A DNA stretch of 64,000 nucleotides. It comes from Salinivirga cyanobacteriivorans (GTDB taxonomy: Bacteria; Bacteroidota; Bacteroidia; Bacteroidales; Salinivirgaceae). Shown piece after piece: positions 1,682-22,105 of this stretch (within the stretch, counting starts at the first letter, position 1; each line of letters begins with the position of its first letter). The stretch is from contig NZ_CP013118.1 of the NCBI RefSeq assembly GCF_001443605.1, positions 752,225-816,224 on the forward strand, written 5' to 3'. The translations under genes were made by a program, and so were the position numbers. The notes under the pieces are model-generated. The model was not told the DNA's origin. It saw nothing but the letters and a program-made list of their open reading frames with translations, and searched no databases.

Positions 1682-4600
1682 ATGAAAAAACAGCTACTTG
1701 TTGTGCTAGCCTGTATAATCAGTCTTGCACACCTTTCTGCACAACCTACTACATTCAATTACCAGGCTGTAGTGCGGGATACGGATGGCAATATCATAGC
1801 TGATCAACCAATTCTACTGCAACTATCGATCATTGATTTTCAGGAAACCCTTTACTACACGGAAGAACATAGCGCCACAACTAACGGTTTCGGCCAAATA
1901 CAGGTAGAAGTTGGCGCCGGGGCTCCTATTTCAGGTCTATTTGAAGATGTGCCGTGGGCTGAGCAACAATTATTGATGGAAATCAAAGTTTCTATAAATG
2001 AGGGAGTATCCTACATCGAAATGGGACAATCACCCTTGCTTGGAGTACCTTACGCCTTCTATGCTGCTTCCATCGAACCGGGAACCGGCATAGAATCTGT
2101 ATCTGACAACGGCGATGGCACACTCACCTTCCATTTTACCGATGGTTCCTCCTACACCACTCCCAACCTTGCCGGCCCCACGCTGGAGGACCAGCCAGGG
2201 AATCTCATCTACCACGACTCCACCGGGTGGGTAGGCACCGACGCCATTAAGATTGCAGGCAGCAATGTAGCTATCGGAACCAATCCCGCTATCTCAAGAT
2301 TATTGGTACATGGCGATGTCACCGCCAATATTGACGATCCGATTTTTGAAGTAAAAAATAAAGACGGCAATGTGGTATTTGCTGTATACCAAAATGGTGT
2401 GGAAGTAAATGTGGATGAATCAGCAAAAAACAAAGCCCAAAAAGGTGGTTTTGCTGTAGGTGGACTTACCGGAGGTAAAGACAGCATTGTACAATATTTC
2501 AGGGTAACGCCCGACAGCGTGCGTGTTTATCTGAAAAATGACAGCACCAAAGCTCAAAAAGGTGGTTTTGCTGTGGGTGGACTAACTTCAGGTAAAGGTT
2601 CAACAGAGTACCTCAGGGTAACACGCGACAGCACCCGTGTATATGTCGATAACTCAGCAAAAGCTCAAAAAGGAGGATTTGCAGTCGGTGGGCTCACCAG
2701 TGGGAAAAACGGAGCCTATTTTATGGATTTAACACCAGAGAATTATTTCATTGGGCATGAAAGTGGAAGCAATTTATCCACAGGTTTATACAATTCAACC
2801 CTGGGCTATCAATCAGGGTATTCAATAAATGAAGGTAATAGCAACGCATTTATCGGGTATCAAAGTGGCTACAACAACAATATTGGATCCGGGAACCTGT
2901 TCCTGGGATACCAAACCGGATTTACCAATACCGATGGAAATTATAATACATTCCTGGGCTACCTTGCTGGCTACTCCAATACAATCGGTGTATTCAACAC
3001 ATTCCTTGGCAGTTTCTCAGGCTATAGCACCACTAATGGCTACAACAATACCTTTGTGGGCGACTCAACCGGATATCATAACCAGTCCGGGTACTTCAAT
3101 ACCTTTATAGGAACTGGTTGCGGCAACCAAAACACAAATGGAAACTCAAACGTATTTATTGGGAATAAAGCAGGTTACAGCAATACATCGGGATTTACAA
3201 ACATTTTTATTGGTAATAAAGCAGGATACCTGGCAGAAACCGGGCAGCAAAACGTATATATCGGAAACCTATCTGGTTATCATAGTACATCAACCTGGGG
3301 TAATGTGTGTATTGGCTTTCGCAGCGGAGAAAATACCACCACCGGGGGTGCCAATACTTTTGTGGGTGCCCGCACAGGCTTTACCAATTCCACAGGATTC
3401 TCAAATACCTTTATCGGAATTGAGGCAGGTTATACGCTTGATACAAGCTGCTGTAATACAATGATCGGCGACCATGCCGGATACCTGGTAGCTAAAGGGG
3501 AGAATAATGTAATAATGGGTGCCTATGCCGGATACAACTTTGCAGAATCTACTGAAAATGGTTATGCCAATGTTTTCATTGGTAATGAAAGCGGATTTAA
3601 CAGCATCGAAGGCTTTGCCAATGTGATGATTGGCCATAAAGCAGGCTTTAGTAATGTTGAAGCCAATTCAAGTGTGGTCATTGGCAATGAATCCGGTTAC
3701 AGCATCACTTCAGGAACAGACAATGTGTATATTGGTAATAAAGCCGGATATTCGAGCACGGAGAATTACAGCAATGTTTTTATTGGTAATGAAAGTGGCT
3801 TTAACACAACTACTGGAAGTGATAACGTTTTCATGGGTTTTTTAAGTGGCCACTCCAACACCACTGGTAGAGAAAATGTGTACATAGGCTGGCTAGCCGG
3901 TCGCTCTAGTGAAACCACACTGGGCAATACTTTTATTGGTTCTTCAACTGGTGAGCACAATGAAGAGGGATATTCGAATACTTTCATTGGTCTGCATGCC
4001 GGTTCATTAAACAAAGACGGTTCTGAAAACACTGTTATTGGCGCCTGGACAGCCTCTGACACTACCCTGGGCTGGGGAAACACCATTATGGGTATGGGTG
4101 CTGCAAGAGTGTTAACTGGCAACCATAATGTGGTAATAGGGAACCGGGCAGGTGAAATAAAAGAAACAGGTAGCAATAATGTGATCATCGGACGGGGTGC
4201 CGGGCACAAAAACCAGGGAGATGCCAATGTTTTTATTGGAAATGACGCCGGAAACTTCAATGCTGAAGGATCAGGCAATGTTTTTATTGGAAATGAAGCA
4301 GGAGCGCATGAAGAAGGGTCCAATAAGCTATACATTGATAATACACCTAATGATTCAGCACATGCAATGATCTATGGAGATTTTGCAGAAAAAACCGTAA
4401 GGTTCAATTCCTGGTTATCCATGAATGCTCCGCCAGATAAAGATTACGATTTTACCATAGATAACCGCTGGACATCATCCAACATCAAGCTTAATGGAGT
4501 CGGAGATGGCTATAATTATTCCACTTTAGCGCTGTGTGCGAAAAATTCCTCCAATGAAAATCTATGGCAAATCAATCATAGTCTCAATGACCATAAACTA

Positions 4601-5113
4601 TCCATAGCTTCGCATAGCGGTGGAGGGTGGCATGTACCGCTTACCATTGACACTACTGGTATTTTTAATTTCGATGGCGAACTAATTCCCGTAAACGACA
4701 ATACCAAAAACATTGGAAGCAGCTCCAACAGGTGGAACACCGTCTATGCTGCAAATGGCGTAGTACAAACCTCCGATGCAAGATTAAAAACAGATATCAC
4801 AAATCTGAGCTACGGTTTAGCCGAAATCATGAGCTTGCGGGCGGTTTCTTTCCATTGGAAAGGAAAAGAAAACGGAAAACAAAAAATTGGTTTGATCGCG
4901 CAGGAAGTAGATGATGTCATAAAAGAAGTGGTCACTAAAGGCGATAACGAACTTCAAACCCTTGGAATTAATTACTCTAATCTTATACCGGTACTAATCA
5001 AAGGTATGCAGGAACAGCAATCTACTATCCGTCAACATCAATCTACCATCACTAAGCAACAAGAAATCATCAATGATTTGCTAAACAGAATCGAGAAAAT
5101 TGAAAACAAGTAA
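1682..5113 (+). CDS. Fibre gene 1: modular surface/secreted protein with S74 intramolecular chaperone tail
   Basis: 1143 residues. Order: Sec signal peptide (1-20, cut before QPTTFNYQAVVRD), a globular head shared by all paralogues (21-130), an HFTDGSSYTT segment (about 148-165), three GGFAVGGL repeats (255-345), about thirty 17-residue GxxNxFIGxxAGxxNTT repeats (353-886), a linker, an S74 endosialidase-type chaperone domain opening with SDARLKTDI (about 1030), and a C-terminal coiled coil. S74 domains trimerise beta-helical fibres and then cut themselves off; the Ser and the Lys five residues later, thought to form the catalytic pair, are both present. So a trimeric fibre is expected. No T9SS sorting domain or outer-membrane anchor is visible, so the export route is unclear. 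It is the first gene of the array; the next starts 17 bp downstream. Substrate or partner is unknown. Confidence 0.85.
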   Translation: MKKQLLVVLACIISLAHLSAQPTTFNYQAVVRDTDGNIIADQPILLQLSIIDFQETLYYTEEHSATTNGFGQIQVEVGAGAPISGLFEDVPWAEQQLLMEIKVSINEGVSYIEMGQSPLLGVPYAFYAASIEPGTGIESVSDNGDGTLTFHFTDGSSYTTPNLAGPTLEDQPGNLIYHDSTGWVGTDAIKIAGSNVAIGTNPAISRLLVHGDVTANIDDPIFEVKNKDGNVVFAVYQNGVEVNVDESAKNKAQKGGFAVGGLTGGKDSIVQYFRVTPDSVRVYLKNDSTKAQKGGFAVGGLTSGKGSTEYLRVTRDSTRVYVDNSAKAQKGGFAVGGLTSGKNGAYFMDLTPENYFIGHESGSNLSTGLYNSTLGYQSGYSINEGNSNAFIGYQSGYNNNIGSGNLFLGYQTGFTNTDGNYNTFLGYLAGYSNTIGVFNTFLGSFSGYSTTNGYNNTFVGDSTGYHNQSGYFNTFIGTGCGNQNTNGNSNVFIGNKAGYSNTSGFTNIFIGNKAGYLAETGQQNVYIGNLSGYHSTSTWGNVCIGFRSGENTTTGGANTFVGARTGFTNSTGFSNTFIGIEAGYTLDTSCCNTMIGDHAGYLVAKGENNVIMGAYAGYNFAESTENGYANVFIGNESGFNSIEGFANVMIGHKAGFSNVEANSSVVIGNESGYSITSGTDNVYIGNKAGYSSTENYSNVFIGNESGFNTTTGSDNVFMGFLSGHSNTTGRENVYIGWLAGRSSETTLGNTFIGSSTGEHNEEGYSNTFIGLHAGSLNKDGSENTVIGAWTASDTTLGWGNTIMGMGAARVLTGNHNVVIGNRAGEIKETGSNNVIIGRGAGHKNQGDANVFIGNDAGNFNAEGSGNVFIGNEAGAHEEGSNKLYIDNTPNDSAHAMIYGDFAEKTVRFNSWLSMNAPPDKDYDFTIDNRWTSSNIKLNGVGDGYNYSTLALCAKNSSNENLWQINHSLNDHKLSIASHSGGGWHVPLTIDTTGIFNFDGELIPVNDNTKNIGSSSNRWNTVYAANGVVQTSDARLKTDITNLSYGLAEIMSLRAVSFHWKGKENGKQKIGLIAQEVDDVIKEVVTKGDNELQTLGINYSNLIPVLIKGMQEQQSTIRQHQSTITKQQEIINDLLNRIEKIENK
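2555..2664 (+). repeat. 110-bp block identical to 6022-6131 (fibre genes 1 and 2)
   Basis: By direct comparison every base matches 6022-6131 in fibre gene 2. The block covers one GGFAVGGL unit. Flanking sequence differs between the genes, so identity has been transferred or maintained over this segment alone. Confidence 0.85.
2741..4340 (+). repeat. 17-residue (51-bp) NxFIG shaft repeats of fibre gene 1
   Basis: Imperfect tandem units of the form GxxNxFIGxxAGYxNTT, clearest as NVFIGNKAGYSNTSG. The regular Asn, Ile-Gly and Ala-Gly spacing suggests one beta-solenoid coil per unit. The repeats are diverged in DNA and coding throughout, so this is protein repetition and not an RNA or CRISPR repeat. 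Confidence 0.85.
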
Positions 5114-5130
5114 TAACTAAACAAAGATTT

Positions 5131-7695
5131 ATGAAAAAACTAACTTTATTATCCTTAATTATAACATTTTTATCGCTAGGATCTTCAGCACAACCCACCA
5201 CATTCAATTACCAGGCAGTGGTGCGCGATACAGACGGAAACCTCATTACAAACCAGCAGACTTTGTTGAGGCTTTCTATTACCGATCCTGAGCAAAACAT
5301 CTATTACGAAGAGGAACACCAGCCAACTACATCCGAATTTGGTCAAATTCAAATTGAAGTGGGCGGCGGAACACTAATCTCAGGTTCTTTTGTCAATATT
5401 CCATGGGGATCGGCTCAACTACTGCTAAACGTTGACATATCGATGGACGAAGGAACTACCTTTACAAACCTGGGACAATCTCCATTACTCGCCGTCCCCT
5501 ATGCCTTTTATTCTGCTTCAGGTGAACCCGGCCCCGAAGGCCCTGCCGGCAACGGCATAGAAACAGTTGAAGATAATGGCAATGGCACGCTCACCTTCCA
5601 TTTTACCGATGGTTCCTCCTACACCACGCCCAACCTGGCCGGCCCTACCCTCGAGGACCAGCCCGGAAACCTCATCTACCACGACTCCACCGGATGGGTG
5701 GGCACAGATGCCATTAAAATTGCAGGCAGCAATGTGGCCATTGGCACCAACCCTGCTATATCGAGGTTACTTGTGCATGGCGATACCAACGCCAGTGAGG
5801 ATGATCCCATTTTCGAAGTCAAAAACAAGAACGGTAATGTGGTATTTGCCGTTTACCAAACCGGTGTAGAAGTAAATGTAGATGAAACAGCCGGCAGCAA
5901 AGGCCTTAAAGGAGGTTTCGCAGTGGGCGGCCTCACAGGCGGAAAAGACAGCATTGTACAATACTTCAAAGTAACGCCTGACAGCGTGCGGGTTTACCTC
6001 CGAGAAGATACTACAAAAGCGCAAAAAGGTGGTTTTGCTGTGGGTGGACTAACTTCAGGTAAAGGTTCAACAGAGTACCTCAGGGTAACACGCGACAGCA
6101 CCCGTGTATATGTCGATAACTCAGCAAAAGCCCAAAAAGGTGGTTTTGCAGTCGGTGGGCTCACCGGGGGTAAAACAATCACAAATTTCCTCGACCTCAC
6201 GCCGGACAATTACTTTATTGGCCACAATGCAGGAGCCAATACCGAGGCAGACGGATCTTATTACGGAATGTATAACTCTTTCATAGGGTTCGAAAGTGGC
6301 TACATGAACACCACAGGTCATCATAACGTATTTTTGGGTTATTATTCCGGCCGTTCGAGTGTTGAAGGCTTCAATAATGTGTTTATAGGCAACAATAGCG
6401 GTTCGTCAAACTTTGACGGGTACCGGAATGTTTTTATTGGTACTGATGCGGGAGCAAGCAATACCGAAGGATATCTCAATACTTTTATTGGCAATGTTGC
6501 CGGCACATCAAATATTGATGGGTATGCCAATACTATAGTTGGTAATTATGCAGGGTACAGTAATGAAAGCGGGAATCTCAATGTATTTATTGGTCAGTCG
6601 GCCGGGAATAACAACAGAAGTGGTAGTAGAAATGTCTGCGTGGGCCGCCGCACAGGCTATAGCAATAAAACCGGAGAAACCAACACCTACATAGGTGATG
6701 AAGCAGCTTATTTTGATACAAGTGCTGTCAATAACACATTTCTCGGAGCATCGGCTGGTCGCAATATTCAAAGTGGAAGCAACAATGTATTCCTTGGCTA
6801 TCAGGCTGGGATGAATGAAAACGGCTCGAATAAATTGTATATCAGCAACAGTGAGACAAATAATTTAATTTACGGGGAATTTGACACGAAGCAGCTGAAA
6901 TTTGATGCACATGTCGGTATAAATACTGACCCATCACCAAGTATTCAGCTTTACGTTGATGACCCTACTGCAAATAACGATAATCCAGCCATTTATGGTG
7001 TCCATAACGTCACTGACAACTACGGAATTGGTGTACAGGGGTTGGGTCGTTTTATAGGTGTAAGGGGCAGGGGATATACTGTAACGTCAAACGCATTTGG
7101 TATATATGGTTATGCCTACGGATCGGGAACGGGCACAAGATATGGCGTATATGGCTATGCAACAGGAGGCACCACAAACTGGGCCGGTTATTTTTCCGGA
7201 AATGTAAATGTAACGGGTACAGTTACAAAAGCAAATTCAGCCACAAAAATTGATCACCCGCAGGACCCTGAAAACAAATATTTGGTACACGCCAATGTGG
7301 GCAGTCCTGACATGAAAAATATTTATGACGGAGTTGTGGTTCTTGATGCTTCAGGCAGTGCAAAAATTGAATTACCAGCATATTTTAGTGCATTCAACAA
7401 AGACTTTCGCTACCAACTAACAGCCATAGGCCAACCCGCCCCTTCCATTTACATTGAGCAAGAAATTACAGATAACACATTCATTATAGCAGGCGGGGAG
7501 CCCGGAATGAAAATTTCATGGCAGGTAACCGGCATCAGAAATGATCCATATGCCCAAAAGAACAGTCTGGAAGTTGAGAAAGCCAAACGTCCTGAAAACC
7601 ACGGCAAGTATACGAATCCTGAATCATATAACAAATCAGAAGAATATAGCATAAACTATGACGAAAAGACAATGCCAAAAACAGATGGTAGGTAA
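5131..7695 (+). CDS. Fibre gene 2: modular secreted protein with a non-S74 C-terminal domain
   Basis: 854 residues. It has a signal peptide (1-20), the shared FNYQAVVRD head, a short collagen-like GEPGPEGPAG stretch, the HFTDGSSYTT segment, three GGFAVGGL repeats (about 258-345) and a short 17-residue-repeat shaft (about 360-573). It then departs from gene 1: a glycine- and tyrosine-rich section (about 625-690, GIYGYAYGSGTGTRYGVYGY) leads to a conserved tail (about 706-835) running from KIDHPQDPENKYLVHA to SWQVTGIRNDPYA. I recognise that tail as a recurring end of bacterial fibre-like proteins, but know no assigned function. No S74 domain, T9SS signal or anchor is seen. The 5' third (5463-6041) is identical in DNA to fibre gene 4, and 6022-6131 to fibre gene 1, so the gene is a mosaic. 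Confidence 0.82.
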   Translation: MKKLTLLSLIITFLSLGSSAQPTTFNYQAVVRDTDGNLITNQQTLLRLSITDPEQNIYYEEEHQPTTSEFGQIQIEVGGGTLISGSFVNIPWGSAQLLLNVDISMDEGTTFTNLGQSPLLAVPYAFYSASGEPGPEGPAGNGIETVEDNGNGTLTFHFTDGSSYTTPNLAGPTLEDQPGNLIYHDSTGWVGTDAIKIAGSNVAIGTNPAISRLLVHGDTNASEDDPIFEVKNKNGNVVFAVYQTGVEVNVDETAGSKGLKGGFAVGGLTGGKDSIVQYFKVTPDSVRVYLREDTTKAQKGGFAVGGLTSGKGSTEYLRVTRDSTRVYVDNSAKAQKGGFAVGGLTGGKTITNFLDLTPDNYFIGHNAGANTEADGSYYGMYNSFIGFESGYMNTTGHHNVFLGYYSGRSSVEGFNNVFIGNNSGSSNFDGYRNVFIGTDAGASNTEGYLNTFIGNVAGTSNIDGYANTIVGNYAGYSNESGNLNVFIGQSAGNNNRSGSRNVCVGRRTGYSNKTGETNTYIGDEAAYFDTSAVNNTFLGASAGRNIQSGSNNVFLGYQAGMNENGSNKLYISNSETNNLIYGEFDTKQLKFDAHVGINTDPSPSIQLYVDDPTANNDNPAIYGVHNVTDNYGIGVQGLGRFIGVRGRGYTVTSNAFGIYGYAYGSGTGTRYGVYGYATGGTTNWAGYFSGNVNVTGTVTKANSATKIDHPQDPENKYLVHANVGSPDMKNIYDGVVVLDASGSAKIELPAYFSAFNKDFRYQLTAIGQPAPSIYIEQEITDNTFIIAGGEPGMKISWQVTGIRNDPYAQKNSLEVEKAKRPENHGKYTNPESYNKSEEYSINYDEKTMPKTDGR
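5463..6041 (+). repeat. 579-bp block identical to 12177-12755 (fibre genes 2 and 4)
   Basis: No mismatch was found by eye between 5463-6041 and 12177-12755, including third codon positions. The wider collinear match is 5191-6041 with 11905-12755, which has only about ten substitutions, all in the first 270 bp, and no indels. It encodes the end of the head through the start of the second GGFAVGGL repeat. Confidence 0.85.
6211..6850 (+). repeat. 17-residue shaft repeats of fibre gene 2
   Basis: About twelve imperfect GxxNVFIGxxAGxSN units, for example GYRNVFIGTDAGASNTE. This is the shortest shaft in the array and less than half the length of that in gene 1. Confidence 0.8.
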
Positions 7696-7832
7696 CCACA
7701 CAACATCGCAATGTTATGCAGCTTATGCAACATGAACACCTAAACTAAAACCGATCGAGCTCAAAAAAGCAGGTTGTTTTTTGTCGTACCAAAAACCAGA
7801 GAAATAATACCAACAATCAATACCAGAACATC

Positions 7833-10800
7833 ATGAAAAAAACATCTTCACTATTTATTTTAGTATTTGCCGTTTGCTTCAGTGCTATAGCCCAACCCAC
7901 CACATTCAATTACCAGGCAGTGGTGCGGAATACAGACGGCAGTCTTTTAATAAATCAGGAAATTCAACTACGAATTAAACTTGTGGATGATGCACAGATC
8001 AATTATTATGTTGAAATTCATAATATCCAGACCAATACATTTGGTCAGGTCAGCGTAGAAATTGGAGGCGGAACGCCAATAGAAGGTAACTTCTCCTCTA
8101 TTCCGTGGAGTACACATCAACTATTTCTTAAAACATCTATTTCCATGGATCAGGGAGCAACTTACACTGAACTCGGACAAACACCATTACTCAGTGTACC
8201 CTATGCCTTGTTTGCTGCTTCAGGAAACCAGGGACCTCCGGGAAACGGAATTGATCATGTGGAATCAATTGGTGATACAGCATTCATCTTACATTTTACC
8301 GATGGCTCTTCTTACACTACCCCTACTCTTGCAGGAAATGAAGGAACGGGTATTGACTATGTAGAAAATTACAACGATACAGCACTCATTTTCCATTTTA
8401 CCGATGGTTCAAGTTTTACCACTAATTCCTTAATCGGACCGCAGGGACAAGATGGTACCGGAATAAGCTCAACTGTAGACAACGGAGATGGTACAATTAC
8501 ATTCTTCTATTCGGATGGTTCTTCATTTACCACTTCCGATATGTCGAGTGCTATTGCGCCAGGCGAAAACATGCAAACACTCCGGCACGATGGCACTACA
8601 TGGGTAGCCACCGATGCATTGAAAACCAACGGAGAAAATGTGGCCATTGGCACCAACCCTGCTATATCGAGGTTACTTGTGCATGGCGATACCAACGCCA
8701 GTGAGGATGATCCCATTTTCGAAGTCAAAAACAAGAACGGTAATGTGGTATTTGCCGTTTACCAAACCGGTGTGGAAGTAAATGTAGATGAAACTGCCGG
8801 CAGCAAAAGTCTTAAAGGTGGTTTCGCAGTGGGCGGCCTCACAGGCGGAAAAGACAGCATTGTACAATACTTCAAAGTAACGCCTGACAGCGTGCGGGTT
8901 TACCTCCGAGAAGATACTACAAAAGCACAAAAAGGTGGTTTTGCTGTAGGCGGACTCACATGGGGTAAAAATAAAACTATTGGTAACGAATACCTTCATG
9001 TATCGCAAGATAGCGTGCGCATTTACATTGACGAATCAGGTACAAAGGCACAGAAGGGTGGTTTTGCCGTGGGCGGACTTACATGGGGTAAGAACAAAAC
9101 CCCCGGTAACGAATATCTTCGCGTATCACCAGACAGTGTCCGTATTTACATTGACAAATCAGACGGAAAAGCACAAAAAGGTGGTTTTGCTGTGGGTGGG
9201 CTTACATGGGGGAAAAAGGAAAATATGAGCAACGAATATCTTCGTGTATCACCAGATAGTGTGCGAATATATATTGACGATTCAGAAACCAAAGCACAAA
9301 AAGGCGGTTTTGCTGTGGGTGGGCTCACCTGGGGTAAAACAGGACAAAAATCCTACCTAAACGTAGAAGTAGATACCGCGCAAACGATTCTTCCGGCCGT
9401 AAACCGTATTCTGTGGTACCCCACAAAGAATGCATTTCTCACGGGCAATGTGCTTATTGAAGACCCGGATAGCGTAGGTACAAATTCAATGGCCACCGGA
9501 TTTGAATCCAAAGCCATTGGGAAATATTCACAGGCTATGGGTTACAAAACCATTGCACGAGGAGATTATTCAACAGCCATTGGAGATTCTGCCATTGCAA
9601 CAGGTGCGAGTTCATTATCATTTGGTGATGGTGTTATAACGACTGGCGACAATAGTTTCGCCTTGGGTTACAACAGCCAATCTGTCGGACAAAACTCCGT
9701 TGCAGCAGGAAATGCCTCCATAACTTATGGAGACAACAGTGTTGCCATGGGTTATTCTAACAGTTCAGCGGGCGCAGGTAGCGCAACGTTTGGTTTTGAC
9801 AACAGTGCCAATGGAGATTACGCCCTGGCAACAGGAAGAGCCTCCTCTGCCGGTGGAAATAATAGTGTAGCCATTGGATATAGTAACATATCTTCAGCAA
9901 CAGGAAGCACTTCTTTTGGTTATGACAATAATGCATACGGCGCTTATTCATTTGCTGCCGGAAGGCAATCTACAGCATCAGGTGATAACAGCGTAGCAAT
10001 AGGTTACAGCAACTATTCGTCTAAACCCGGTAGCGCTTCATTCGGTTTTAATAACGATGCAACAGGAAATTACGCGCTTGCTGCGGGATATTCAAATGTG
10101 TCATCGGGCACAGGAAGTGCGTCTTTCGGTTATGACAATAGCGTATCAGGAGCTTATTCTGTAGCAATTGGAAGACAAACAAGTGTTTCAGGGTATTATT
10201 CACTGGCAATAGGCTATTTATCCAGTTCGCAAGCCAATTATTCCTACACAATGGGACAAAACAATGAAGCCAGGCATGCCTATTCGTTTGCATTCGGGAA
10301 AGATTGTATCGCAAATGAAGAACTGGCATTTGCATTTGGTGCCAGTGCATCAAGTTCAGGAGAAGGAGCTTATGCATTTGGAGCTGGGGCAAATGCAGCC
10401 GGCAGCAAGTCTTATGCTTTTGGTGAAGCCTCGTATACCGGTGGATATGGATCATATGCTTTTGGAAGTAATGCCAAATCGTACGGTACATCGTCCTACG
10501 CAATAGGCAATGCGGCAAAAGCTTATGGAAACTACAACTTTGCAATCGGACATGATGTGTTAACCGGAAGCTCAGGCTGGCAATATGCTACAGTTCTGGG
10601 TAAATTTAACAGCACCTCTGTAACCAACCCGCTCCTCGTTGTAGGTAATGGAACAAGCAACACCGCCCGTTCCAATGCCCTGGTATTAAATACCAATGGA
10701 AACCTGGGTCTTGGTGTAACTAATCCAGCACAGAGGCTTGATATAAACGGAAATATCCGTTTAACAGGTGGCGACAGAACAATAGAAGTCATTAGTGGGT

Positions 10801-11768: not shown

Positions 11769-11844
11769 AGTCTATTCCAGTAAATATCAGTAGTAAATAT
11801 TCAAGATAAGCGACTGTGGAATGACAAAAATAAAAAATAAAATC

Positions 11845-14748
11845 ATGAAACGACATCTGATATTTTTACTCTTGTTTTGCATCGGAGCTTTTGAGCTCTT
11901 GGCCCAACCCACCACATTCAATTACCAGGCTGTGGTGCGCGATACAGACGGAAACCTCATTACAAACCAGCAGACTTTGTTGAGGCTTTCTATTACCGAT
12001 CCTGAGCAAAACATCTATTACGAAGAGGAACATCAGCCAACTACAACCGAATTTGGTCAAATTCAAATTGAAGTGGGCGGCGGAACACTAATCTCAGGTT
12101 CTTTTGTCGATATTCCATGGGGGGCGGCTCAGCTACTGCTAAACGTTGACATATCGATGGACGAAGGAACTACCTATACAAACCTGGGACAATCTCCATT
12201 ACTCGCCGTCCCCTATGCCTTTTATTCTGCTTCAGGTGAACCCGGCCCCGAAGGCCCTGCCGGCAACGGCATAGAAACAGTTGAAGATAATGGCAATGGC
12301 ACGCTCACCTTCCATTTTACCGATGGTTCCTCCTACACCACGCCCAACCTGGCCGGCCCTACCCTCGAGGACCAGCCCGGAAACCTCATCTACCACGACT
12401 CCACCGGATGGGTGGGCACAGATGCCATTAAAATTGCAGGCAGCAATGTGGCCATTGGCACCAACCCTGCTATATCGAGGTTACTTGTGCATGGCGATAC
12501 CAACGCCAGTGAGGATGATCCCATTTTCGAAGTCAAAAACAAGAACGGTAATGTGGTATTTGCCGTTTACCAAACCGGTGTAGAAGTAAATGTAGATGAA
12601 ACAGCCGGCAGCAAAGGCCTTAAAGGAGGTTTCGCAGTGGGCGGCCTCACAGGCGGAAAAGACAGCATTGTACAATACTTCAAAGTAACGCCTGACAGCG
12701 TGCGGGTTTACCTCCGAGAAGATACTACAAAAGCGCAAAAAGGTGGTTTTGCTGTAGGCGGACTCACATGGGGTAAAAATAAAACTATTGGTAACGAATA
12801 CCTTCATGTATCGCAAGATAGCGTGCGCATTTACATTGACGAATCAGGTACAAAGGCACAGAAGGGTGGTTTTGCCGTGGGCGGACTTACATGGGGTAAG
12901 AACAAAACCCCCGGTAACGAATATCTTCGCGTATCACCAGACAGTGTCCGTATTTACATTGACGAATCAGACGGGAAAGCACAAAAAGGTGGTTTTGCTG
13001 TGGGTGGATTAACATCCGGAAAAAGCAATCTCAATGACTTTTTGCGTGTTACAGGCGATAGCACACGTATTTTTGTAAAAGATTACAGCGCAGGCTTTGG
13101 TGTGCTGAATATTGACGGAGTTCAGTCAACCAGTTTTCTTGATCTCACAGAGTTTAATTACTTCATAGGCCATGAAAGTGGTGTAAATCTTACTACTGGA
13201 GCATACAATTCAACTGTAGGTTATTTATCCGGCAGGTCATTATCATCGGGTAGCTACAATGTTTTTATGGGATACGAATCCGGCAAATCAACTACTAATG
13301 GATCAAGTAATGTATTTTTAGGCTATCATGCAGGCCAGCAAAACACAAGCGGAAATAATAATTTGTATTTAGGATACCAGTCTGGTTATTACAATCAGAG
13401 TGGAAACTTCAATACCTATATGGGGTATCAAACTGGTTATTTCTCAGATTATGCGTCATCAGCTCCAAATTACAACACTTATATTGGTTTTCAGTCCGGA
13501 TATAATACCCGCTCAGGTAGCAACAATGCCTTTATAGGCTACAGAGCAGGGCGAACAACAACCACGGGAAGCAGCAATGTATTTATCGGGACAGATGCAG
13601 GTTATTCAAATACCACAGGGTTGCATAACGTGTACATCGGGCATAAAAGTGGATACACGGCAAGTACGCCCGGATACAACACATTCCTTGGCTACCAATC
13701 TGGCTATTCCAATACTACAGGCAGCTCAAATGTATTTCTTGGTATTAGTGCGGGTTCTGTCAATACAACCGGATACGGAAACACCTTTGTTGGCCCCGGA
13801 GCCGGAAACCACAATACGACCGGATTCAACAATGTATATATCGGAGTGAGCGCAGGAGAATACTGCACTACAGGAGATTTCAACATAGTAATTGGGCCAC
13901 AATGGGATACGCCTAACGAAAGACCCGGAAATAATAATATTTTTATCGGACCCAATGCAGGAAAAAATGAAACCGGATCCAACAAACTCTATATAGGATC
14001 AACACCCCTTATCTATGGCGATTTTGCCAACCAAAGAGTCGGTATAAACACAACAAATCCCGATGCACCATTAAAAGTAGAATCAACAACAGCAAATACG
14101 GGAACCATTCGTAGTGAATCAAAATACAATGGATCAAACCCGCATTATGGTGGAGCCTTTAATGCAAGCAGTGGAACACAAGGTATTGGATGTTATGCCG
14201 CAGGAAGTTTACGCGACTTTTTTGCCGGAGGTGCAGGTACAAATTACTACCCCTTTACTGGGGCTCACGAGGTTATTTTAGATGAAAACTTCCCAGAAAA
14301 CACAAAACCGGGGTTGATAGTGGTTTTGACCGGTCACGTTGAAAAGCGAATTACCGATGATGGTTCTGTCTCCCTTTCATCAACAATGCCTGAAGTCACA
14401 TTAAGCACAAAAGCCAATGACAAAGCCGTTTTGGGTGTTTTCTTATCTGAAGATGAACATACAAAAGATCACTGGCTCAAGAAAAACATTAGAGCCGGAA
14501 CAGTAAATGCCCTGGGAGAAGGCCGCGTATGGGTTTGCAATAGCAACGGAACTATCGAAGCAGGAGATTATATTACAACATCTAGGGTTCCCGGTTATGG
14601 ACAAAAACAGGACGACGACCTTCTGCACAACTACACTTTGGGTAAAGCAACTGAAACCATCAATTGGGAAAATGTAAAGAAAACCATCACAATTAAAGGG
14701 AAAACATATAAAGTTTTCCTGGTAGGGGTAGTATACACAAGTGGCTAA
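11845..14748 (+). CDS. Fibre gene 4: modular secreted protein with phage-like G2-type C-terminal domain
   Basis: 967 residues from the ATG at 11845; an in-frame ATG at 11821 would only add a charged octapeptide before the signal peptide MKRHLIFLLLFCIGAFELLA, so the later start is preferred. Shared head, HFTDGSSYTT segment, four GGFAVGGL repeats (12622-13025), 17-residue shaft (about 440-720), then a tail from about residue 785 containing GEGRVWVCNSNG, IEAGDYITTSRVPGYG and QDDDLLHNYTLGKA. The GDYITTSxxPGYGxxQDDDxxHNYT signature recurs in marine phage and large-virus structural proteins and resembles the Peptidase_G2 autoproteolytic chaperone domain (established for phage appendages; assignment here is mine). 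The 5' half is a patchwork of gene 2 and gene 3 DNA. It is 52-76 bp downstream of gene 3. Confidence 0.82.
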   Translation: MKRHLIFLLLFCIGAFELLAQPTTFNYQAVVRDTDGNLITNQQTLLRLSITDPEQNIYYEEEHQPTTTEFGQIQIEVGGGTLISGSFVDIPWGAAQLLLNVDISMDEGTTYTNLGQSPLLAVPYAFYSASGEPGPEGPAGNGIETVEDNGNGTLTFHFTDGSSYTTPNLAGPTLEDQPGNLIYHDSTGWVGTDAIKIAGSNVAIGTNPAISRLLVHGDTNASEDDPIFEVKNKNGNVVFAVYQTGVEVNVDETAGSKGLKGGFAVGGLTGGKDSIVQYFKVTPDSVRVYLREDTTKAQKGGFAVGGLTWGKNKTIGNEYLHVSQDSVRIYIDESGTKAQKGGFAVGGLTWGKNKTPGNEYLRVSPDSVRIYIDESDGKAQKGGFAVGGLTSGKSNLNDFLRVTGDSTRIFVKDYSAGFGVLNIDGVQSTSFLDLTEFNYFIGHESGVNLTTGAYNSTVGYLSGRSLSSGSYNVFMGYESGKSTTNGSSNVFLGYHAGQQNTSGNNNLYLGYQSGYYNQSGNFNTYMGYQTGYFSDYASSAPNYNTYIGFQSGYNTRSGSNNAFIGYRAGRTTTTGSSNVFIGTDAGYSNTTGLHNVYIGHKSGYTASTPGYNTFLGYQSGYSNTTGSSNVFLGISAGSVNTTGYGNTFVGPGAGNHNTTGFNNVYIGVSAGEYCTTGDFNIVIGPQWDTPNERPGNNNIFIGPNAGKNETGSNKLYIGSTPLIYGDFANQRVGINTTNPDAPLKVESTTANTGTIRSESKYNGSNPHYGGAFNASSGTQGIGCYAAGSLRDFFAGGAGTNYYPFTGAHEVILDENFPENTKPGLIVVLTGHVEKRITDDGSVSLSSTMPEVTLSTKANDKAVLGVFLSEDEHTKDHWLKKNIRAGTVNALGEGRVWVCNSNGTIEAGDYITTSRVPGYGQKQDDDLLHNYTLGKATETINWENVKKTITIKGKTYKVFLVGVVYTSG
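13150..14000 (+). repeat. 17-residue shaft repeats of fibre gene 4
   Basis: About sixteen units, the most regular in the array, e.g. GSSNVFIGTDAGYSNTT. One unit carries a short insertion (SDYASSAPNYN). The series ends with the same GSNKLYI cap seen in genes 1 and 2. Confidence 0.85.
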
Positions 14749-14830
14749 TATATAGAAAACAACAATAATATAAGCATGAATATAAATAGAAGAACTAATT
14801 TTAAATTATAAAACTTTAAACCATAGAACT

Positions 14831-17464
14831 ATGAAAAAACAGCTTTTATTATGTGTCTTTTTATTGGGGTATTTAAACCTATGGACACAACCCACCACGT
14901 TTAATTATCAGGCTGTGGTAAGAGATTTGGACGGAAACCTCATTACAAATCAGGAATTAATACTGAGGTTATCTATTAGCGATATTCAGGAAACAATTTA
15001 TTACCAGGAAGAACATCAGACCTCTACCAATGAATTTGGTCAGATTCAGGTTGAGGTAGGTGGCGGCACACCACTTTCCGGGGATTTTGCAACCACACCC
15101 TGGGGATTGGCCCAGCTTCTGCTCACTGTTGACATGTCGATGGATCAGGGCACAACCTATACGAACCTTGGGCAATCACCCCTGCTCGCAGTGCCTTATG
15201 CCTTTTATGCGGCCTCTGGAGAGCCCGGACCCGAAGGCCCTGCCGGAAATGGCATAGACACTGTGGAAGATAATGGCGACGGCACGCTTACCTTCCATTT
15301 TACCGACGGTTCAAGTTACACCACGCCCAACCTGGCCGGCCCCACACTTGAAGCTCAACCCGGCAACCTCATCTACCATGACTCTACAGGGTGGGTAGGC
15401 ACCGACGCCATTAAGATTGCAGGCAGCAATGTAGCTATCGGAACCAATCCAGCTATCTCAAGATTATTGGTGCATGGCGATATTAACGCTAATATCGACG
15501 ATCCTATTTTTGAAGTAAAAAATAAAGACGGCAATGTGGTATTTGCAGTTTACCAAAACGGTGTAGAAGTAAATGTGGATGAATCAGCCAAAGACAAAGC
15601 CCTTAAAGGAGGATTCGCTGTAGGTGGACTTACCTCAGGTAAAGACAGCATTGTACAGTACTTTAGAGTAACGCCCGACAGTGTGCGTGTATATCTGAAA
15701 GATGACACCACCAAAGCTCAAAAAGGTGGCTTTGCAGTAGGTGGGCTCACATCAGGAAAAGGCGCTTTGGAATACCTTAGGGTAACACGCGACAGCACCC
15801 GCGTTTATGTCGACAACGCAACAAAAGCTCAAAAAGGTGGCTTCGCTGTAGGTGGACTTACCTCAGGTAAAAGTGGCGATTATTACATGAACATTACAGA
15901 AGACAACTATTTTATAGGTCATCAAAGTGGTGGGCAATTGAATACCGGAACCTACAATTCCACATTAGGGTACCAATCAGGCTATTCTGTTTACAATGGA
16001 AATAGTAATTCATTTATTGGTTACCAGAGCGGTTATTCCACAACGAATGGTGAGGGTAACTTATTCCTTGGTTATCAATCAGGTTTTAATAATGTGGATG
16101 GATTCTACAATTCATTTTTAGGATATCAATCCGGATATAGTAACACAGTTGGCAGTGCCAATAGTTTCCTGGCAAGCTACAGTGGATACAGTAATACAAC
16201 CGGAAACCTGAACACTTTTGTGGGATACGAGTCAGGTTTTTCCAACACCACAGGTACAGCCAACACATTTATCGGGAGCTATGTAGGACGAAACAATACT
16301 GAGGGCAATTACAATGTTTACATAGGTGAGCGGGCAGGTTTTATGGGCATAAACCCCGACCTGAATGTTTTTATTGGCTACCGAAGCGGATATGAAGTAA
16401 ATACAGGATCTTCTAACGTTGCCATAGGTTACCTGAGTGGTTACAGTCTCAATGACGGCATTGATAATGTATTTATGGGTACCAATGCGGGGTACAACAT
16501 TGAAGATGGAGATAAAAACATTTGTCTGGGCTCCAATGCCGGAAATATGCTCTCTAACGGCAACAATAATGTGTTTATTGGAGATAGCACAGGCTATTCA
16601 GGTGGTTCTGTAGATGAAAGTGTTTTTATGGGTTCAGCAGCAGGTAAAAATGCCCTAAACAACACCGAAAATGTATTCATTGGATACCAGTGTGGATACC
16701 ACACTACAACTGGAGGTTATAATGTATATATCGGCAACAGAGCTGGGAGAGACAATAATGGAGGAAACAATGTTTTCATAGGTCGGGGAACCGGCAGGTA
16801 TGTAACCTCAGGAGTAAACAATGTTTATATGGGTATAGGTGCTGGTGGCGACAATGCTGAAGGAGACAATAACACCTACATTGGAACCCTGGCCGGAGGT
16901 AATGGAGTATCTGGAAGTAAAAACGTATATATTGGTAATTTTACCGGAGGTGGTGCCGTAGGCGACAGTAATGTGTTTATCGGCAATTTTGCAGGCTATT
17001 CAGAAAGTGGGTCGCAAAAACTATATATTGATAATACAAGTACATCGAGCCCGCTCATAAAAGGAGATTTTAATAGTAACTGCCTCCAGGTGAATGGGAA
17101 TTTCTATTATACAGGTTCATTTGGCGCTTGTTCAGATGCCAGATACAAAAAAAATATCCAACCCATTTCCAATGCTTTAAGCTACATCATGAAGCTACAG
17201 GGAATTAACTATTATTGGAGGCAAAATGAATTTCCAGATGTACCATTTAGCAACCAAAAACAAATAGGTTTAATTGCCCAGGATGTAGAAAAACTCATAC
17301 CTGAACTGGTTTCGGAAAACAACGACGGGTATAAAACCATTGATTATGCAAAACTTACACCTCTATTAATAGAGTCGATAAAGAGCCAGCAAGAATCTAT
17401 TGAAAAACAAAAACTTCTGATTAATGAACTCGTAAAAAGAATAGAAAAGCTTGAAAATAATTAA
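14831..17464 (+). CDS. Fibre gene 5: modular surface/secreted protein with S74 chaperone tail
   Basis: 877 residues. Signal peptide (MKKQLLLCVFLLGYLNLWT, cut before QPTTFNYQ), head, GEPGPEGPAG linker, HFTDGSSYTT segment, three GGFAVGGL repeats (15603-15875), 17-residue shaft (about 358-735), and a compact S74 domain from SDARYKKNI (about 768) with QIGLIAQDVEKLIPELV, ending in a coiled coil. Unlike gene 1 there is almost no spacer between shaft and chaperone. Head-to-repeat DNA around 15380-15480 closely matches gene 1 (about 2215-2325). It probably shares a transcript with the gene at 17559, which follows after 94 bp. Function of the mature fibre is unknown. Confidence 0.85.
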   Translation: MKKQLLLCVFLLGYLNLWTQPTTFNYQAVVRDLDGNLITNQELILRLSISDIQETIYYQEEHQTSTNEFGQIQVEVGGGTPLSGDFATTPWGLAQLLLTVDMSMDQGTTYTNLGQSPLLAVPYAFYAASGEPGPEGPAGNGIDTVEDNGDGTLTFHFTDGSSYTTPNLAGPTLEAQPGNLIYHDSTGWVGTDAIKIAGSNVAIGTNPAISRLLVHGDINANIDDPIFEVKNKDGNVVFAVYQNGVEVNVDESAKDKALKGGFAVGGLTSGKDSIVQYFRVTPDSVRVYLKDDTTKAQKGGFAVGGLTSGKGALEYLRVTRDSTRVYVDNATKAQKGGFAVGGLTSGKSGDYYMNITEDNYFIGHQSGGQLNTGTYNSTLGYQSGYSVYNGNSNSFIGYQSGYSTTNGEGNLFLGYQSGFNNVDGFYNSFLGYQSGYSNTVGSANSFLASYSGYSNTTGNLNTFVGYESGFSNTTGTANTFIGSYVGRNNTEGNYNVYIGERAGFMGINPDLNVFIGYRSGYEVNTGSSNVAIGYLSGYSLNDGIDNVFMGTNAGYNIEDGDKNICLGSNAGNMLSNGNNNVFIGDSTGYSGGSVDESVFMGSAAGKNALNNTENVFIGYQCGYHTTTGGYNVYIGNRAGRDNNGGNNVFIGRGTGRYVTSGVNNVYMGIGAGGDNAEGDNNTYIGTLAGGNGVSGSKNVYIGNFTGGGAVGDSNVFIGNFAGYSESGSQKLYIDNTSTSSPLIKGDFNSNCLQVNGNFYYTGSFGACSDARYKKNIQPISNALSYIMKLQGINYYWRQNEFPDVPFSNQKQIGLIAQDVEKLIPELVSENNDGYKTIDYAKLTPLLIESIKSQQESIEKQKLLINELVKRIEKLENN
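15905..17040 (+). repeat. 17-residue shaft repeats of fibre gene 5
   Basis: About 22 units of GxxNxFIGYxSGYxNTTG form, e.g. GTANTFIGSYVGRNNTE, capped by GSQKLYIDN just before the S74 domain. Confidence 0.85.
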
Positions 17465-17558
17465 TAATCCACCCGGCTCACAGTTTTGTTTTTCAGCAAA
17501 TAAAGGACTGAATTGCAGGAAAAACAGGTGGCCGGGAAACCCTAATAAACAACAAACT

Positions 17559-18062
17559 ATGAAAACATTATTTTTAACAATAATCGCCGTTGCTGTAATG
17601 GAGTTTGCAGCAGCACAAACAATATCTAAAGATGTTGTTGCAACTGCCGGTGACACCTATACCAATACCAGTGAAAACATTGTGTTAAGCTGGACAATTG
17701 GACAAACTGTAACCGGTACCTTTTATTCTGGCGATGGTACTTTCTCCATAAGCCAGGGATTTCACACAGGCATGCCCCTGAGCGGCATTGGCATTGAGGA
17801 GTACTACTCCAATAGCCCTGTGCAAAACATTTATCCGAACCCAACGCATGGAAATGCATATCTTGAAATGACAAACAGCCAGGAAGGCCCCATTATTTTC
17901 AAAATCTATAATGCACAGGGAAAGCTGGTAAGCACACAGCAAGAAATCATTGAAAACGAAAAAATAGAAATCCAGTTGCAATCATTAAAACCCGGAATAT
18001 ACTTTATTTCGTCACTTTTTGAAGATGGAAATAAAAAAAGTCAGAAAATTATAAAACAGTAA
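17559..18062 (+). CDS. Small secreted protein with T9SS type-A C-terminal sorting domain
   Basis: 167 residues from the ATG at 17559, which opens a clean signal peptide (MKTLFLTIIAVAVMEFAAA, cut before QTIS). The longer frame from 17451 overlaps the previous gene and puts 36 hydrophilic residues before the signal peptide, so it is rejected. The N-terminal half (SWTIGQTVTGTF, FSISQGFHTG) is a short beta-rich domain seen in many small Bacteroidota exported proteins. The C-terminal part (IYPNPTHGNAYLEM through GIYFISSLF to KIIKQ) is a classical type-A sorting domain that directs passage through T9SS and attachment to the cell surface. It is the only protein of the array with this signal. The next fibre gene starts 4 bp after its stop, suggesting translational coupling. 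Confidence 0.85.
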   Translation: MKTLFLTIIAVAVMEFAAAQTISKDVVATAGDTYTNTSENIVLSWTIGQTVTGTFYSGDGTFSISQGFHTGMPLSGIGIEEYYSNSPVQNIYPNPTHGNAYLEMTNSQEGPIIFKIYNAQGKLVSTQQEIIENEKIEIQLQSLKPGIYFISSLFEDGNKKSQKIIKQ

Positions 18063-18596
18063 AAACATGAAAAAACAGCTTATCTTTTTATCCATGCTGA
18101 TGCTTGGGGTTATAAATTTATGTGCCCAACCAGACACCTTTAATTACCAGGCGGTTGTCAGAGATACCGATGACAACCTTTTAACAACCGAATCCATACA
18201 ACTTCGATTGTCTATTCAGGATGATGGATCAAGCAACCATTATACTGAATTACATGAAACAACCACAAATGAATTCGGACAAATTGCAATAGAAGTTGGT
18301 GGCGGAACATTAATTTCAGGCGACTTTAGCACCATTCCATGGGGAGATACCCGATTATGGCTCACCACCGAAGTTTCACTCGATGGCGGAACAAGCTACT
18401 CTCAATTGGGGCAAGCTCCGTTATTAGCTGTGCCTTATGCGCTTTATGCAGCGTCAGGAGAACCAGGCCCGGCAGGTAATGGTATTCAAAATGTAATAGA
18501 TAATGGAGATGGTACACTGACCTTTGAATTTACAGATAGCACCAGCTATACAACTCCGAACCTTGCCGGACCCACACTGGAGGCCCAGCCAGGTAA

Positions 18597-18604
18597 TTTA
18601 ATCT
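18597..18604 (+). repeat. Left 8-bp target-site duplication (TTTAATCT)
   Basis: TTTAATCT at 18597-18604 is repeated exactly at 20103-20110. The intact paralogues carry a single copy at this place. Eight bp is the usual target duplication for IS256-family elements. Confidence 0.9.
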
Positions 18605-18653
18605 CATACCGTCCAAAAAAGTGTGTCTAAAACACATGGTTCCCAACTATTAT

Positions 18654-18661
18654 TAGTTTTG
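18654..18661 (+). promoter_or_regulatory. Candidate -7 element of the transposase gene (TAGTTTTG)
   Basis: TAGTTTTG fits TAnnTTTG exactly, 38 bp before the transposase start. No clear -33 TTTG was found. It lies inside the element, as expected for an internal transposase promoter. Confidence 0.35.
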
Positions 18662-18699
18662 CAATGAATTAAAAAGTAAAACAATAAAAGTCAGAAACC

Positions 18700-19866
18700 A
18701 TGATGTTTACAAAGAAACAAACAGAAGAAGTATTAAGCAAGTTTATTTCACGAGAAAATGGTCTTCATGATGTAATGGAGATGGTCTTAAATGCAATGAT
18801 GTATTCAGAACGGGAAGCCTTTCTGTCAGGAGCAAAAAGCAACAAGGGAAATGGTTACAGACCCCTAAGTGCCTTAGGTCATGGACACCAACTTGAGCTG
18901 CAAGTCCCTAGAGATCGCTTAAGTCAATTTACTCCAAAAATATTAGCTATATTTCGAGAACAAGAATCTTACTTAAAAGAAGTCTCCTTTAAGCTATATT
19001 CAAAAGGTTTAACCACGCGTGATATATCCTCAGTCATGGATACCATTTATGGCGGACATTATAGTAAAAGTAAGATTAGTGATATTAGTACCAGTTTTTA
19101 TGATCAAATGCAAGCATGGAGAAACAGAGAACTGGACTCCCATTATCTTGCACTTTATATTGACGGCCTTCATGTAAAATTAAAAAGAGGAAATAAATAT
19201 GAAACAGAATGTTTTTATATCATTCTTGGCTTGCGTGAAGATTTTAAGCGAGAAGTCATATCTATCGTTAATTTTCCCGTAGAATCAGCTAATTCATGGG
19301 AAATAATATTTGATCAAATCAAAGCAAGAGGAATAGAGACTGTTGGTATTATAATATCAGACGCTCTAAGCGGTATTGATAAGAGCATAGCAAAAAAATT
19401 TAGTTGCCCGCATCAGAAATGCATTTTACACTTGCAACGTAACCTATTAAGTTATGTCCGCATGAGTGATAAAAAAGAGGTTGCTAATGACTTTAGAGAA
19501 GTTCTCAGTGCTGCTGATCCGCACCATAACAAAGCTATAGCTGTGTCAAAATTTAAAGAATTTAAAGAAAAATGGCGAAAGAAATACAGGTCTTTTGGGC
19601 AATATCTTGATAACCTGGATATTTACCCATATTTAACCTTTTTAGATTACGATGTCAGAATACGTCGTATGCTTTATACGACCAACTGGATAGAGCGATT
19701 TAATAAAAGCGCCAGAAGAACATTGAAAATAAGAGGTGCATTACCATCTGAAGAGGCAGTTCTATCACTGATAACAAGTGTGGCAAAAGAACAAACAGAG
19801 GGTCATTACTCATATCCTATTTATAATTTTAGATATGAAGAAAAACTATTAGCAAACAAATATTAA
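18700..19866 (+). CDS. IS256-family (mutator-type) transposase
   Basis: 388 residues, full length for the family. DDE catalytic residues are visible: Asp155 in LYIDGLHVK, Asp221 in IIISDALSGI, and Glu332 in TTNWIERFNKSARR. The family's Cys/His signature between the second Asp and the Glu is present as CILHLQRN (241-248). It catalyses cut-and-paste or copy-out movement of the surrounding element. The start at 18700 is followed immediately by a second ATG (18703), either of which could serve. The frame is intact, so the element may still be active. Confidence 0.93.
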   Translation: MMFTKKQTEEVLSKFISRENGLHDVMEMVLNAMMYSEREAFLSGAKSNKGNGYRPLSALGHGHQLELQVPRDRLSQFTPKILAIFREQESYLKEVSFKLYSKGLTTRDISSVMDTIYGGHYSKSKISDISTSFYDQMQAWRNRELDSHYLALYIDGLHVKLKRGNKYETECFYIILGLREDFKREVISIVNFPVESANSWEIIFDQIKARGIETVGIIISDALSGIDKSIAKKFSCPHQKCILHLQRNLLSYVRMSDKKEVANDFREVLSAADPHHNKAIAVSKFKEFKEKWRKKYRSFGQYLDNLDIYPYLTFLDYDVRIRRMLYTTNWIERFNKSARRTLKIRGALPSEEAVLSLITSVAKEQTEGHYSYPIYNFRYEEKLLANKY

Positions 19867-20102
19867 CCTGGATTTGATTTATTATCTCAAATGCAAAATT
19901 AATTTGACTAGGAAAGTTGTCAAGAGCAAGACAAGTGGCCCCACATGCCACTACACAACACCTAAGCCACTATTGACAACATCCTTCGTCAAATTTTAAA
20001 AGCATTTAGAACAAATAAATCAACGAAAAAAATATAAGTTTGTATTGAAAGAATGCATTACTAATAATAGGTCAACCCAGACACACTAATCTGGACACTA
20101 CC

Positions 20103-20110
20103 TTTAATCT
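20103..20110 (+). repeat. Right 8-bp target-site duplication (TTTAATCT)
   Basis: Exact partner of 18597-18604, directly abutting the right inverted repeat. Confidence 0.9.
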
Positions 20111-20879
20111 ACCACGATTCCACGGGTTGGGTAGGGACCGATGCCATTAAAATTGCCGGACAAAACGTTGGAATTGGAATAAACCCTGCAATTTCACGAT
20201 TACTGGTACATGGCGATACAGCAGCAAGTGCCGACGATCCTATTTTTGAAGTAAAAAATAAAGATGGCAATGTAGTTTTTGCAGTGTACCAAAACGGTGT
20301 GGAAGTAAACGTGGATGAATCGACTAAGGAAAAAGGGCTGAAGGGCGGTTTTGCTGTGGGTGGCCTCACTGGAGGAAAAGACAGTGTGGTGCAGTACTTC
20401 AGGGTAACACCCGACAGTGTGCGTGTATACCTTCGAGAAGATACTACCAGGGCTCAAAAAGGTGGATTTGCTGTGGGTGGCCTCACAGGAGGAAAAGGGG
20501 TTGCTGAATATTTGAGAGTAACACCAGATAGCACCAGAGTCTATGTCAACAACTCTGCCAAAGGCCAAAAAGGTGGCTTTGCAGTAGGTGGGCTTACAGG
20601 TGGCAAAAACACAGGCATTCGCGATGAATACATCCGAATATCACCTGACAGTGTGCGTATTTATATTGATGAATCGTGTGGCAAGGCGCAAAAAGGAGGT
20701 TTCGCAGTTGGAGGGCTGACAGGTGGAAAGCAACAACTACCTCAATTTTTTAATGTAGAGTTCGATACCACACAAACAATAAACCCCAGTGAACCCAGAA
20801 TTTTGTGGTACCCCGGCAAGAATGCATTTATGGCCGGACAGGTACTCATTGAAGATGTCGATAGCGTTGGAAAAAACTC

Positions 20880-21640
20880 CCTTTCGAATGGCTTTGAGAA
20901 CAAAGCCATTGGAAATGGTTCAGTTGCAATGGGATACCGATCTATAAGTCGTGGAATATTATCTTCTTCCATCGGTTATAATTCAGTGGCCAATGATACG
21001 CTTTCTTTTGCATTTGGAAATCATTCATTTGCAAATGCACCGAGCTCCTACGCCTTTGGTTCCTATTCCAGAGCCCTGGGGTATGGTAGTTTTGCTCTTG
21101 GGTTTTATGAAGAGGGCCTTGCTGCATTCATTGAAAAACCAACAACAGCATCAGGGCCATTCTCATTTGCCATAGGATTTGGTTCTACAGCTGCCGATAC
21201 TGCTGCCGTTGCAATGGGTGTTAAAGCAGAAGCTCTGCAGCCATTCTCAACAGCAATTGGTTTTGTATCGCAAGCGCAGGGCAGACAAAGTCAGGCCATT
21301 GGAGCTTTTTCTAAAACCAGTGGAGACAATGCCACTTCTATAGGAAATTATGCTGAAGCCCAGGCAGTAAATGCTTTTGCATTTGGAAACAATGCCATTG
21401 CAGGTAACGACTTTGCTATGGCGGTCGGAAACACCGTTACATCGGCAGGTGAATTCAGCTATAGTTTTGGAAATAATATTACAAACTCCGGGAAAGAATC
21501 TTTTGGGCTTGGTAACAATATAATAATCAATGAGCTTGCAATGAATTCATTCGCTATTGGAAATAACATTGGTGTCAATTCACCAGGTTCATTTGTATTT
21601 GGTGACGGAACAGCATTGAGCCAAAACATCGCCAAACCAG
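20880..21640 (+). repeat. 14-residue YadA-like repeats of fibre gene 7
   Basis: Units such as GNGSVAMGYRSISR and YSFGNNITNSG follow the SxAxG head-repeat pattern of fibre gene 3. It is the second shaft of this type in the array and lies in the disrupted gene. Confidence 0.75.
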
Positions 21641-22105
21641 AAAATAGTTTTATCGTGAGGTCTTCCGGTGGAGTTTATTTTTACACATCAAGCAATTTGG
21701 AGTCAGGTGTAGAAATTACAAATGGTGGAAGCTCCTGGAATACCATATTTAAAAACAACCGCTTAAAGTATGGTAAAGCAAAAGGGAGCGACATCTACAA
21801 AAAATTACAGAGCCTTACCGTTGAAGAATGGAGTTTTGGAAAACAGGAAGGATCGATAAAACATATCGGCATTGACCCTGCCCTGTTTTATGAAACATTT
21901 GGTTTTGGGGCAGGTAAAGATAAAATGACCTGGATCGATCCTGTTGGAATTAACACAATTGCCATACAGGAACAACATAAGATTATAACAGAGCAACAAA
22001 TTACAATTGAAAACCAGGCAAAAAAGATTAAGCAGCTTGAGCAGGAAATCGAGCAAATAAAAGAGCTAATTCAGAAATAGTAATTTAATTGTAATTGCAG
22101 AATTG

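Follow-up and report, generated by a model that had tools for sequence, protein, structure and literature searches.

The window analysed here is a stretch of 64,000 nucleotides, covering positions 752225-816224 of a 4.81-Mb, one-contig genome. It contains six fibre genes at 1682-22080, all of them on the + strand. The intact genes 1-5 have 854-1311 codons each, they are followed by a 167-codon gene, here called the companion, and then by the sixth fibre gene. The features of the array are listed below, where R1, R2 and R3 are successive GGFAVGG units.

1682..5113, + strand: fibre gene 1; signal peptide, MAT-like head, neck, three GGFAVGG units, FIG-repeat shaft and S74 tip (SDARLK)
5131..7695, + strand: fibre gene 2; matches gene 4 at 98.8% identity from head to R1 and gene 1 at 99.1% in R2; FIG shaft and non-S74 tip
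5191..6050, + strand: exchanged block of gene 2, at CDS nt 61-920, reaching from the mature N-terminus to inside GGFAVGG codons and matching gene 4 at 98.8% identity
7833..11768, + strand: fibre gene 3; head and linker of its own, 98.6% identity to gene 4 from neck to R3; YadA_head shaft and S74 tip (SDARVK)
8637..9199, + strand: exchanged block of gene 3, at CDS nt 805-1367, that matches gene 4 at 98.6% identity and ends inside GGFAVGG codons
11845..14748, + strand: fibre gene 4; blocks in common with genes 2 and 3, FIG shaft and another non-S74 tip
14831..17464, + strand: fibre gene 5; three GGFAVGG units, FIG shaft and S74 tip (SDARYK)
17559..18062, + strand: companion gene; signal peptide, SWTIG..QGF domain of about 50 amino acids and type-A sorting domain of type IX secretion (T9SS; PF18962/TIGR04183)
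18067..18604, + strand: fibre gene 6, 5' part; signal peptide, head and linker, starting 4 bp past the companion
18605..20102, + strand: IS256/Mutator-family insertion of 1498 bp, with the transposase at 18700-19866
20103..22080, + strand: 3' part of the same sixth gene (gene 7 of the original prediction); neck, four exact GGFAVGG units, YadA_head shaft and SDIYKK end

A signal peptide is present in every complete fibre gene. Its cleavage site precedes a Gln, in agreement with the Q-rule for Bacteroidetes signal peptides, in which Gln follows cleavage (PMC5837995). The open reading frame of gene 4 extends from 11821 and its likely start is at 11845. After the signal peptide comes a head of about 115 residues, which carries Q-P-x-T-FNYQAVVR in all six fibres, then a linker, and then a neck of 60 residues followed by 3-5 GGFAVGG units of about 40 residues each. 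The exact motif occurs 3, 3, 5, 4 and 3 times in genes 1 to 5 and 4 times in the sixth gene. Two kinds of shaft occur. Genes 1, 2, 4 and 5 have a FIG..AG repeat with matches to PHROG families of virion-structural and tail-spike proteins, and genes 3 and 7 have a series of Pfam YadA_head repeats. Pfam identifies a Peptidase_S74 domain at the ends of genes 1, 3 and 5. Gene 7 ends in a coiled coil bearing SDIYKK, a variant of SDxxxK that Pfam does not call, and genes 2 and 4 carry two non-S74 tips that are unrelated to each other. A sequence search of the PDB matched gene 1 in its S74 region only and returned nothing for gene 4. No window fibre matches a T9SS sorting tail.

The sixth gene is interrupted. 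The inserted element encodes a transposase (Transposase_mut, E 2.6e-77), has imperfect inverted ends and is flanked by the two copies, at 18597 and 20103, of a perfect 8-bp target duplication, TTTAATCT. When the flanks are joined across the element they form one 835-codon frame, genes 6 and 7 are therefore one gene split by an IS256-family element. The insertion looks recent, its transposase is apparently intact, and it inactivates the sixth fibre gene.

The original prediction had described a same-strand array of giant fibre-like genes with GGFAVGG repeats, two shaft types and at least three C-terminal types. The array is there, with five intact genes and one split by the IS; each fibre gene has three to five exact motifs, the two shafts are the FIG..AG repeat and YadA_head, and we count at least four kinds of C-terminus. 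A common signal peptide and head, also predicted, hold for genes 1-5 and fail for gene 7, which has neither because it is the 3' half of the split gene.

Matches to PHROG tail-spike and tail-fibre families in the shafts and S74 ends would suit a prophage remnant or phage tail-fibre region. We consider this origin very improbable, since every complete gene has a signal peptide, family searches of the window found no genes for phage structure, lysis or integration, the flanks encode CstA, sensor kinases and ParAB, and the same arrangement is widespread on Bacteroidales chromosomes.

Exchange of the base between neighbouring genes

Genes 2 and 4 share a tract of 860 bp at 98.8% identity, and just outside it the flanks are 40% and 31% identical. 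The tract runs from the first mature codon to a point 22 nt into the second GGFAVGG motif. Genes 3 and 4 are 98.6% identical over 563 bp, from the neck to 19 nt into the fourth motif of gene 3; the head and linker of gene 3 are its own and lie outside the tract. The tract common to genes 2 and 3 is 97.5% identical. Unit R2 is 99.1% identical between genes 1 and 2, the neighbouring units being 64-78% identical. The 2/4, 2/3 and 3/4 tracts all end 19-22 nt into GGFAVGG codons, and these codons are the site of most tract ends. For every listed tract, column permutation gave 0/2000 arrangements as extreme. Among the shafts and tips of the array, blastn (E 1e-8) detects only 132 nt of similarity at 70%, between genes 3 and 7.

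Recent tandem duplication followed by fast divergence of the tips, without gene conversion, would be a simpler origin for these blocks. Tandem paralogues do exist, and the region from head to R1 is common to genes 2 and 4. However, the blocks are mosaic: gene 2 follows gene 4 from the head to R1 and then gene 1 in R2, so that simple duplication is insufficient, and gene 3 joins its own head to the neck-to-R3 region of gene 4. In the near-identical pair 2/4, moreover, the signal peptides are 63% and the upstream DNA 47% identical, and identity drops within a few bases. We regard duplication without exchange as improbable. The tracts instead show, at the level of DNA sequence, ordinary-looking recombination between neighbouring genes, which keeps the head, neck and stem alike within the array and leaves the shafts and tips distinct. 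It presumably acts through the nearly identical GGFAVGG repeats, by gene conversion or by crossing over.

A similar pattern is seen elsewhere. A second array of the same genome and arrays in three other genomes (G029, G001 and G003) contain base tracts of 92-98% identity beside diverged DNA. No exchange was found when this genome's two arrays were compared with each other, the top identity being 90% over 48 bp. Necks and S74 tips were compared in 20 genes having both parts, from trees of short alignments with many unresolved forks that were read for clustering of genome labels only. The neck tree required 9 label changes against a shuffled mean of 13.8 (0/500 shuffles as low), the necks thus cluster by genome. 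The matched tip tree required 13 changes against 13.8 (173/500) and has no such clustering. Larger, unmatched sets of necks and tips agree with the 20-gene test. Because the necks cluster by genome and the S74 tips do not, exchange within the array homogenises the base, and the tips are not visibly shuffled. The tip types of the array recur in other genomes.

In this sample, which holds one genome per species with fragmented assemblies for the relatives, we found no identical gene order and sequence lacking signs of exchange; the arrays differ and several have the exchange signature. Among same-genus genomes, whose assemblies are fragmented, the best match to the flanking kinase in G001 is only 37% identical.

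A constant base with variable tips, recombinable repeats, tandem same-strand copies and block mosaics are also what would be expected of a contingency or antigenic-variation locus, where recombination switches the tip joined to an expressed base and cells of one culture differ. Yet each of the five genes without an insertion begins with a start and a signal peptide of its own, which leaves neither a silent donor nor a single expression site visible. Exchange within the array affects the bases and hardly any of the tips. Searches for an invertase or a diversity-generating element (a reverse transcriptase with a template repeat) found neither, the only enzyme of this kind being the IS transposase, and inverted repeats within the array are short and chance-like. 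The lack of invertible repeats and of a recombinase also argues against such switching, which we think unlikely.

The DNA-level block sharing of the original prediction is thus far beyond chance by permutation, and its logic of constant head and variable tip, as in tail fibres, is supported by the modular build, the exchanged bases and the distinct tips. Its proposal of a dedicated diversification locus is not borne out: apart from the IS transposase, the searches revealed neither a recombinase nor an invertible repeat nor a reverse transcriptase, and the visible exchange homogenises the base.

The second array of this genome has three fibre genes (L043 10567-18856, at about 2.98 Mb) with another head, of the LLVPRLTNTQMNNI type. 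It keeps the GGFAVGG stem and the FIG shaft and has S74 in two genes, the head module is thus swapped too. A long gene of a shared family (QKGI.NNGARIVV.NGAYIKVQ) is found at L043 18865 to L044 3622 and at L050 2-3838, and lies directly downstream of arrays with this type-2 head in two genomes, this one and G001. In this genome the last residues of its product look like a T9SS tail.

A T9SS-tagged companion gene

We consider the small T9SS-tagged gene, which the original prediction did not list, the most informative neighbour of the array. Its sorting domain is recognised by PF18962 (E 2.4e-14) and TIGR04183 (E 7e-14), and the predicted structure of this C-terminal domain (CTD) resembles the CTDs of mirolase and RemA (Foldseek E 3e-3 to 8e-3). 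The N-terminal SWTIG...QGF domain is small, is predicted at a pLDDT of about 55-80, and has no name in either Pfam or NCBIfam. The gene that immediately follows the companion in this window is the one broken by the IS.

A profile of the small domain gave 47 matches in 24 of 41 genomes. In 34 of the 47, spread over 21 genomes, the companion immediately precedes a fibre head on the same strand; the profile was seeded with fibre-adjacent members, which biases the search, and with the seeds left out 30 of 42 are still adjacent. Among the loci that were fetched, a fibre is directly downstream in 22 of 26, with gaps of -4 to 277 bp (median about 26, two overlaps). A separate phylum-wide sample added seven new companion matches, five upstream of a head and one just downstream. 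A model trained on the companions, and recognising all of them, detected no T9SS tail on any of the 73 distinct frames that bear a head. Over the 41 genomes, 23 have both head and companion, five have a head only, one has a companion only and 12 have neither (Fisher p 8.6e-6, with genomes counted as independent and phylogeny ignored). The T9SS channel SprA is encoded in 40 of the 41, this genome included, the co-occurrence therefore does not simply reflect the presence of T9SS.

Genome comparison thus shows that tail-less fibres have a gene for a T9SS-tagged protein of about 165 amino acids directly upstream in many Bacteroidales, an arrangement that is new here; in our search of the open-access literature, neither the companion nor MAT-like fibres linked to T9SS were described. 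We propose from this genome context that the companion may be an export or anchor partner of the fibres. The pairing is not obligatory, since some heads have no detectable companion and some companions stand alone.

These exceptions would also fit an independent small T9SS surface protein, such as a second adhesin or a regulator, that shares an operon with fibres which exit elsewhere. We take this possibility seriously and lean against it, as the same-strand adjacency is tight and recurs over many families, and T9SS tails are distributed in a complementary way, present on the companion and absent from the fibres.

Two lone companion-fibre pairs occur elsewhere in the same genome (L046 6071-7929 and L045 8297-10146). 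In another genome (G008), in which no head was detected, a companion-type domain opens a 465-residue protein (L082 1432-2829).

Relationship to known fibres and proposed function

The NCBIfam model Bdello_MAT_N (NF053851) matches all six heads, with a best E of 1.1e-7 and 31.8 bits. It also matches two lone fibres of the same genome, one of which, at 3.97 Mb, scores 34.4 bits. The head scores of about 32 bits lie below the curated cut-off of 60. The head is predicted as a seven-stranded beta domain (pLDDT 86), and a fold search found no PDB match below 1e-3, only weak matches to viral beta-sandwiches. The heads of Bdellovibrio MAT fibres have likewise been reported as a beta domain without a strong PDB match (PMC10769870).

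The array proteins resemble the mosaic adhesive trimer (MAT) fibres described in Bdellovibrio bacteriovorus by Caulton et al. (2024, PMC10769870) in having a signal peptide, a beta-rich head of about 115-130 amino acids, a long fibre and many paralogues, and in combining S74 (SDxxxK) and non-S74 tips in one paralogue set, with a constant base and swapped tips. They differ in their distant head, which is below the curated cut-off, their GGFAVGG stem and their Bacteroidales host with T9SS, and also in their tandem arrays with exchange inside the array and their T9SS-tagged companion gene. Judged by sequence the proteins are MAT-like, and we do not class them as MAT members.

Trimeric autotransporter adhesins such as YadA and Ata share the YadA_head repeats found in genes 3 and 7. 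Unlike them, the array proteins have no detected C-terminal YadA anchor barrel, only YadA_head, and they end in S74 or a coiled coil. Phage fibres and spikes with an S74 chaperone, such as the K1F endosialidase and the T5 L-shaped fibre (4uw8), share the S74 end and the segment preceding it, whereas the array genes are chromosomal, encode Sec signal peptides and have no phage context. In Porphyromonas gingivalis, variants of surface virulence factors are exchanged among strains (PMC5266723). In both cases domain rearrangement and recombination diversify surface proteins of Bacteroidota, but the proteins are unrelated and the exchange visible here concerns the constant base within one array.

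The locus probably encodes MAT-like adhesive surface fibres, likely trimeric, of T9SS-bearing Bacteroidales, with bases homogenised by recombination and the companion as a predicted escort or anchor. Each fibre would be exported by Sec through its Q-rule signal peptide. The constant beta-sandwich head would stay near the cell, with the neck and GGFAVGG stem, the shaft and the tip extending outward, and some tips would self-cleave through the S74 chaperone. The companion, presumably co-transcribed and co-expressed with the fibres, would cross the outer membrane by T9SS and may bind the common head, so escorting or anchoring every fibre of the set. A homogenised base would keep all tips compatible with this one partner, and the tips may adhere to different ligands such as glycans, other cells or particles.

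We therefore put forward, more tentatively and as plausible without being quite probable, a two-gene display system of Bacteroidota in which a small protein with a T9SS tag and a hitherto undescribed N-terminal domain binds the common head of tail-less MAT-like fibres and so exports or anchors them, and recombination keeps the heads compatible with it while the tips differ. If this is true, T9SS would serve proteins that have no sorting tail. The study of the MAT fibres (PMC10769870) did not settle which element of the surface holds the constant head. For that head's distant relatives, genome context now offers a candidate partner, and as the outer-membrane route of these hosts, T9SS, is known, the question of the head's partner is directly testable. 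The array also provides a natural series of tips that are interchangeable on one base.

Beside the array, at 22106-47407 of the window, lies a dense group of genes for multi-PAS histidine kinases, response regulators, SpoIIE phosphatases and a CheB-CheR-PAS fusion.
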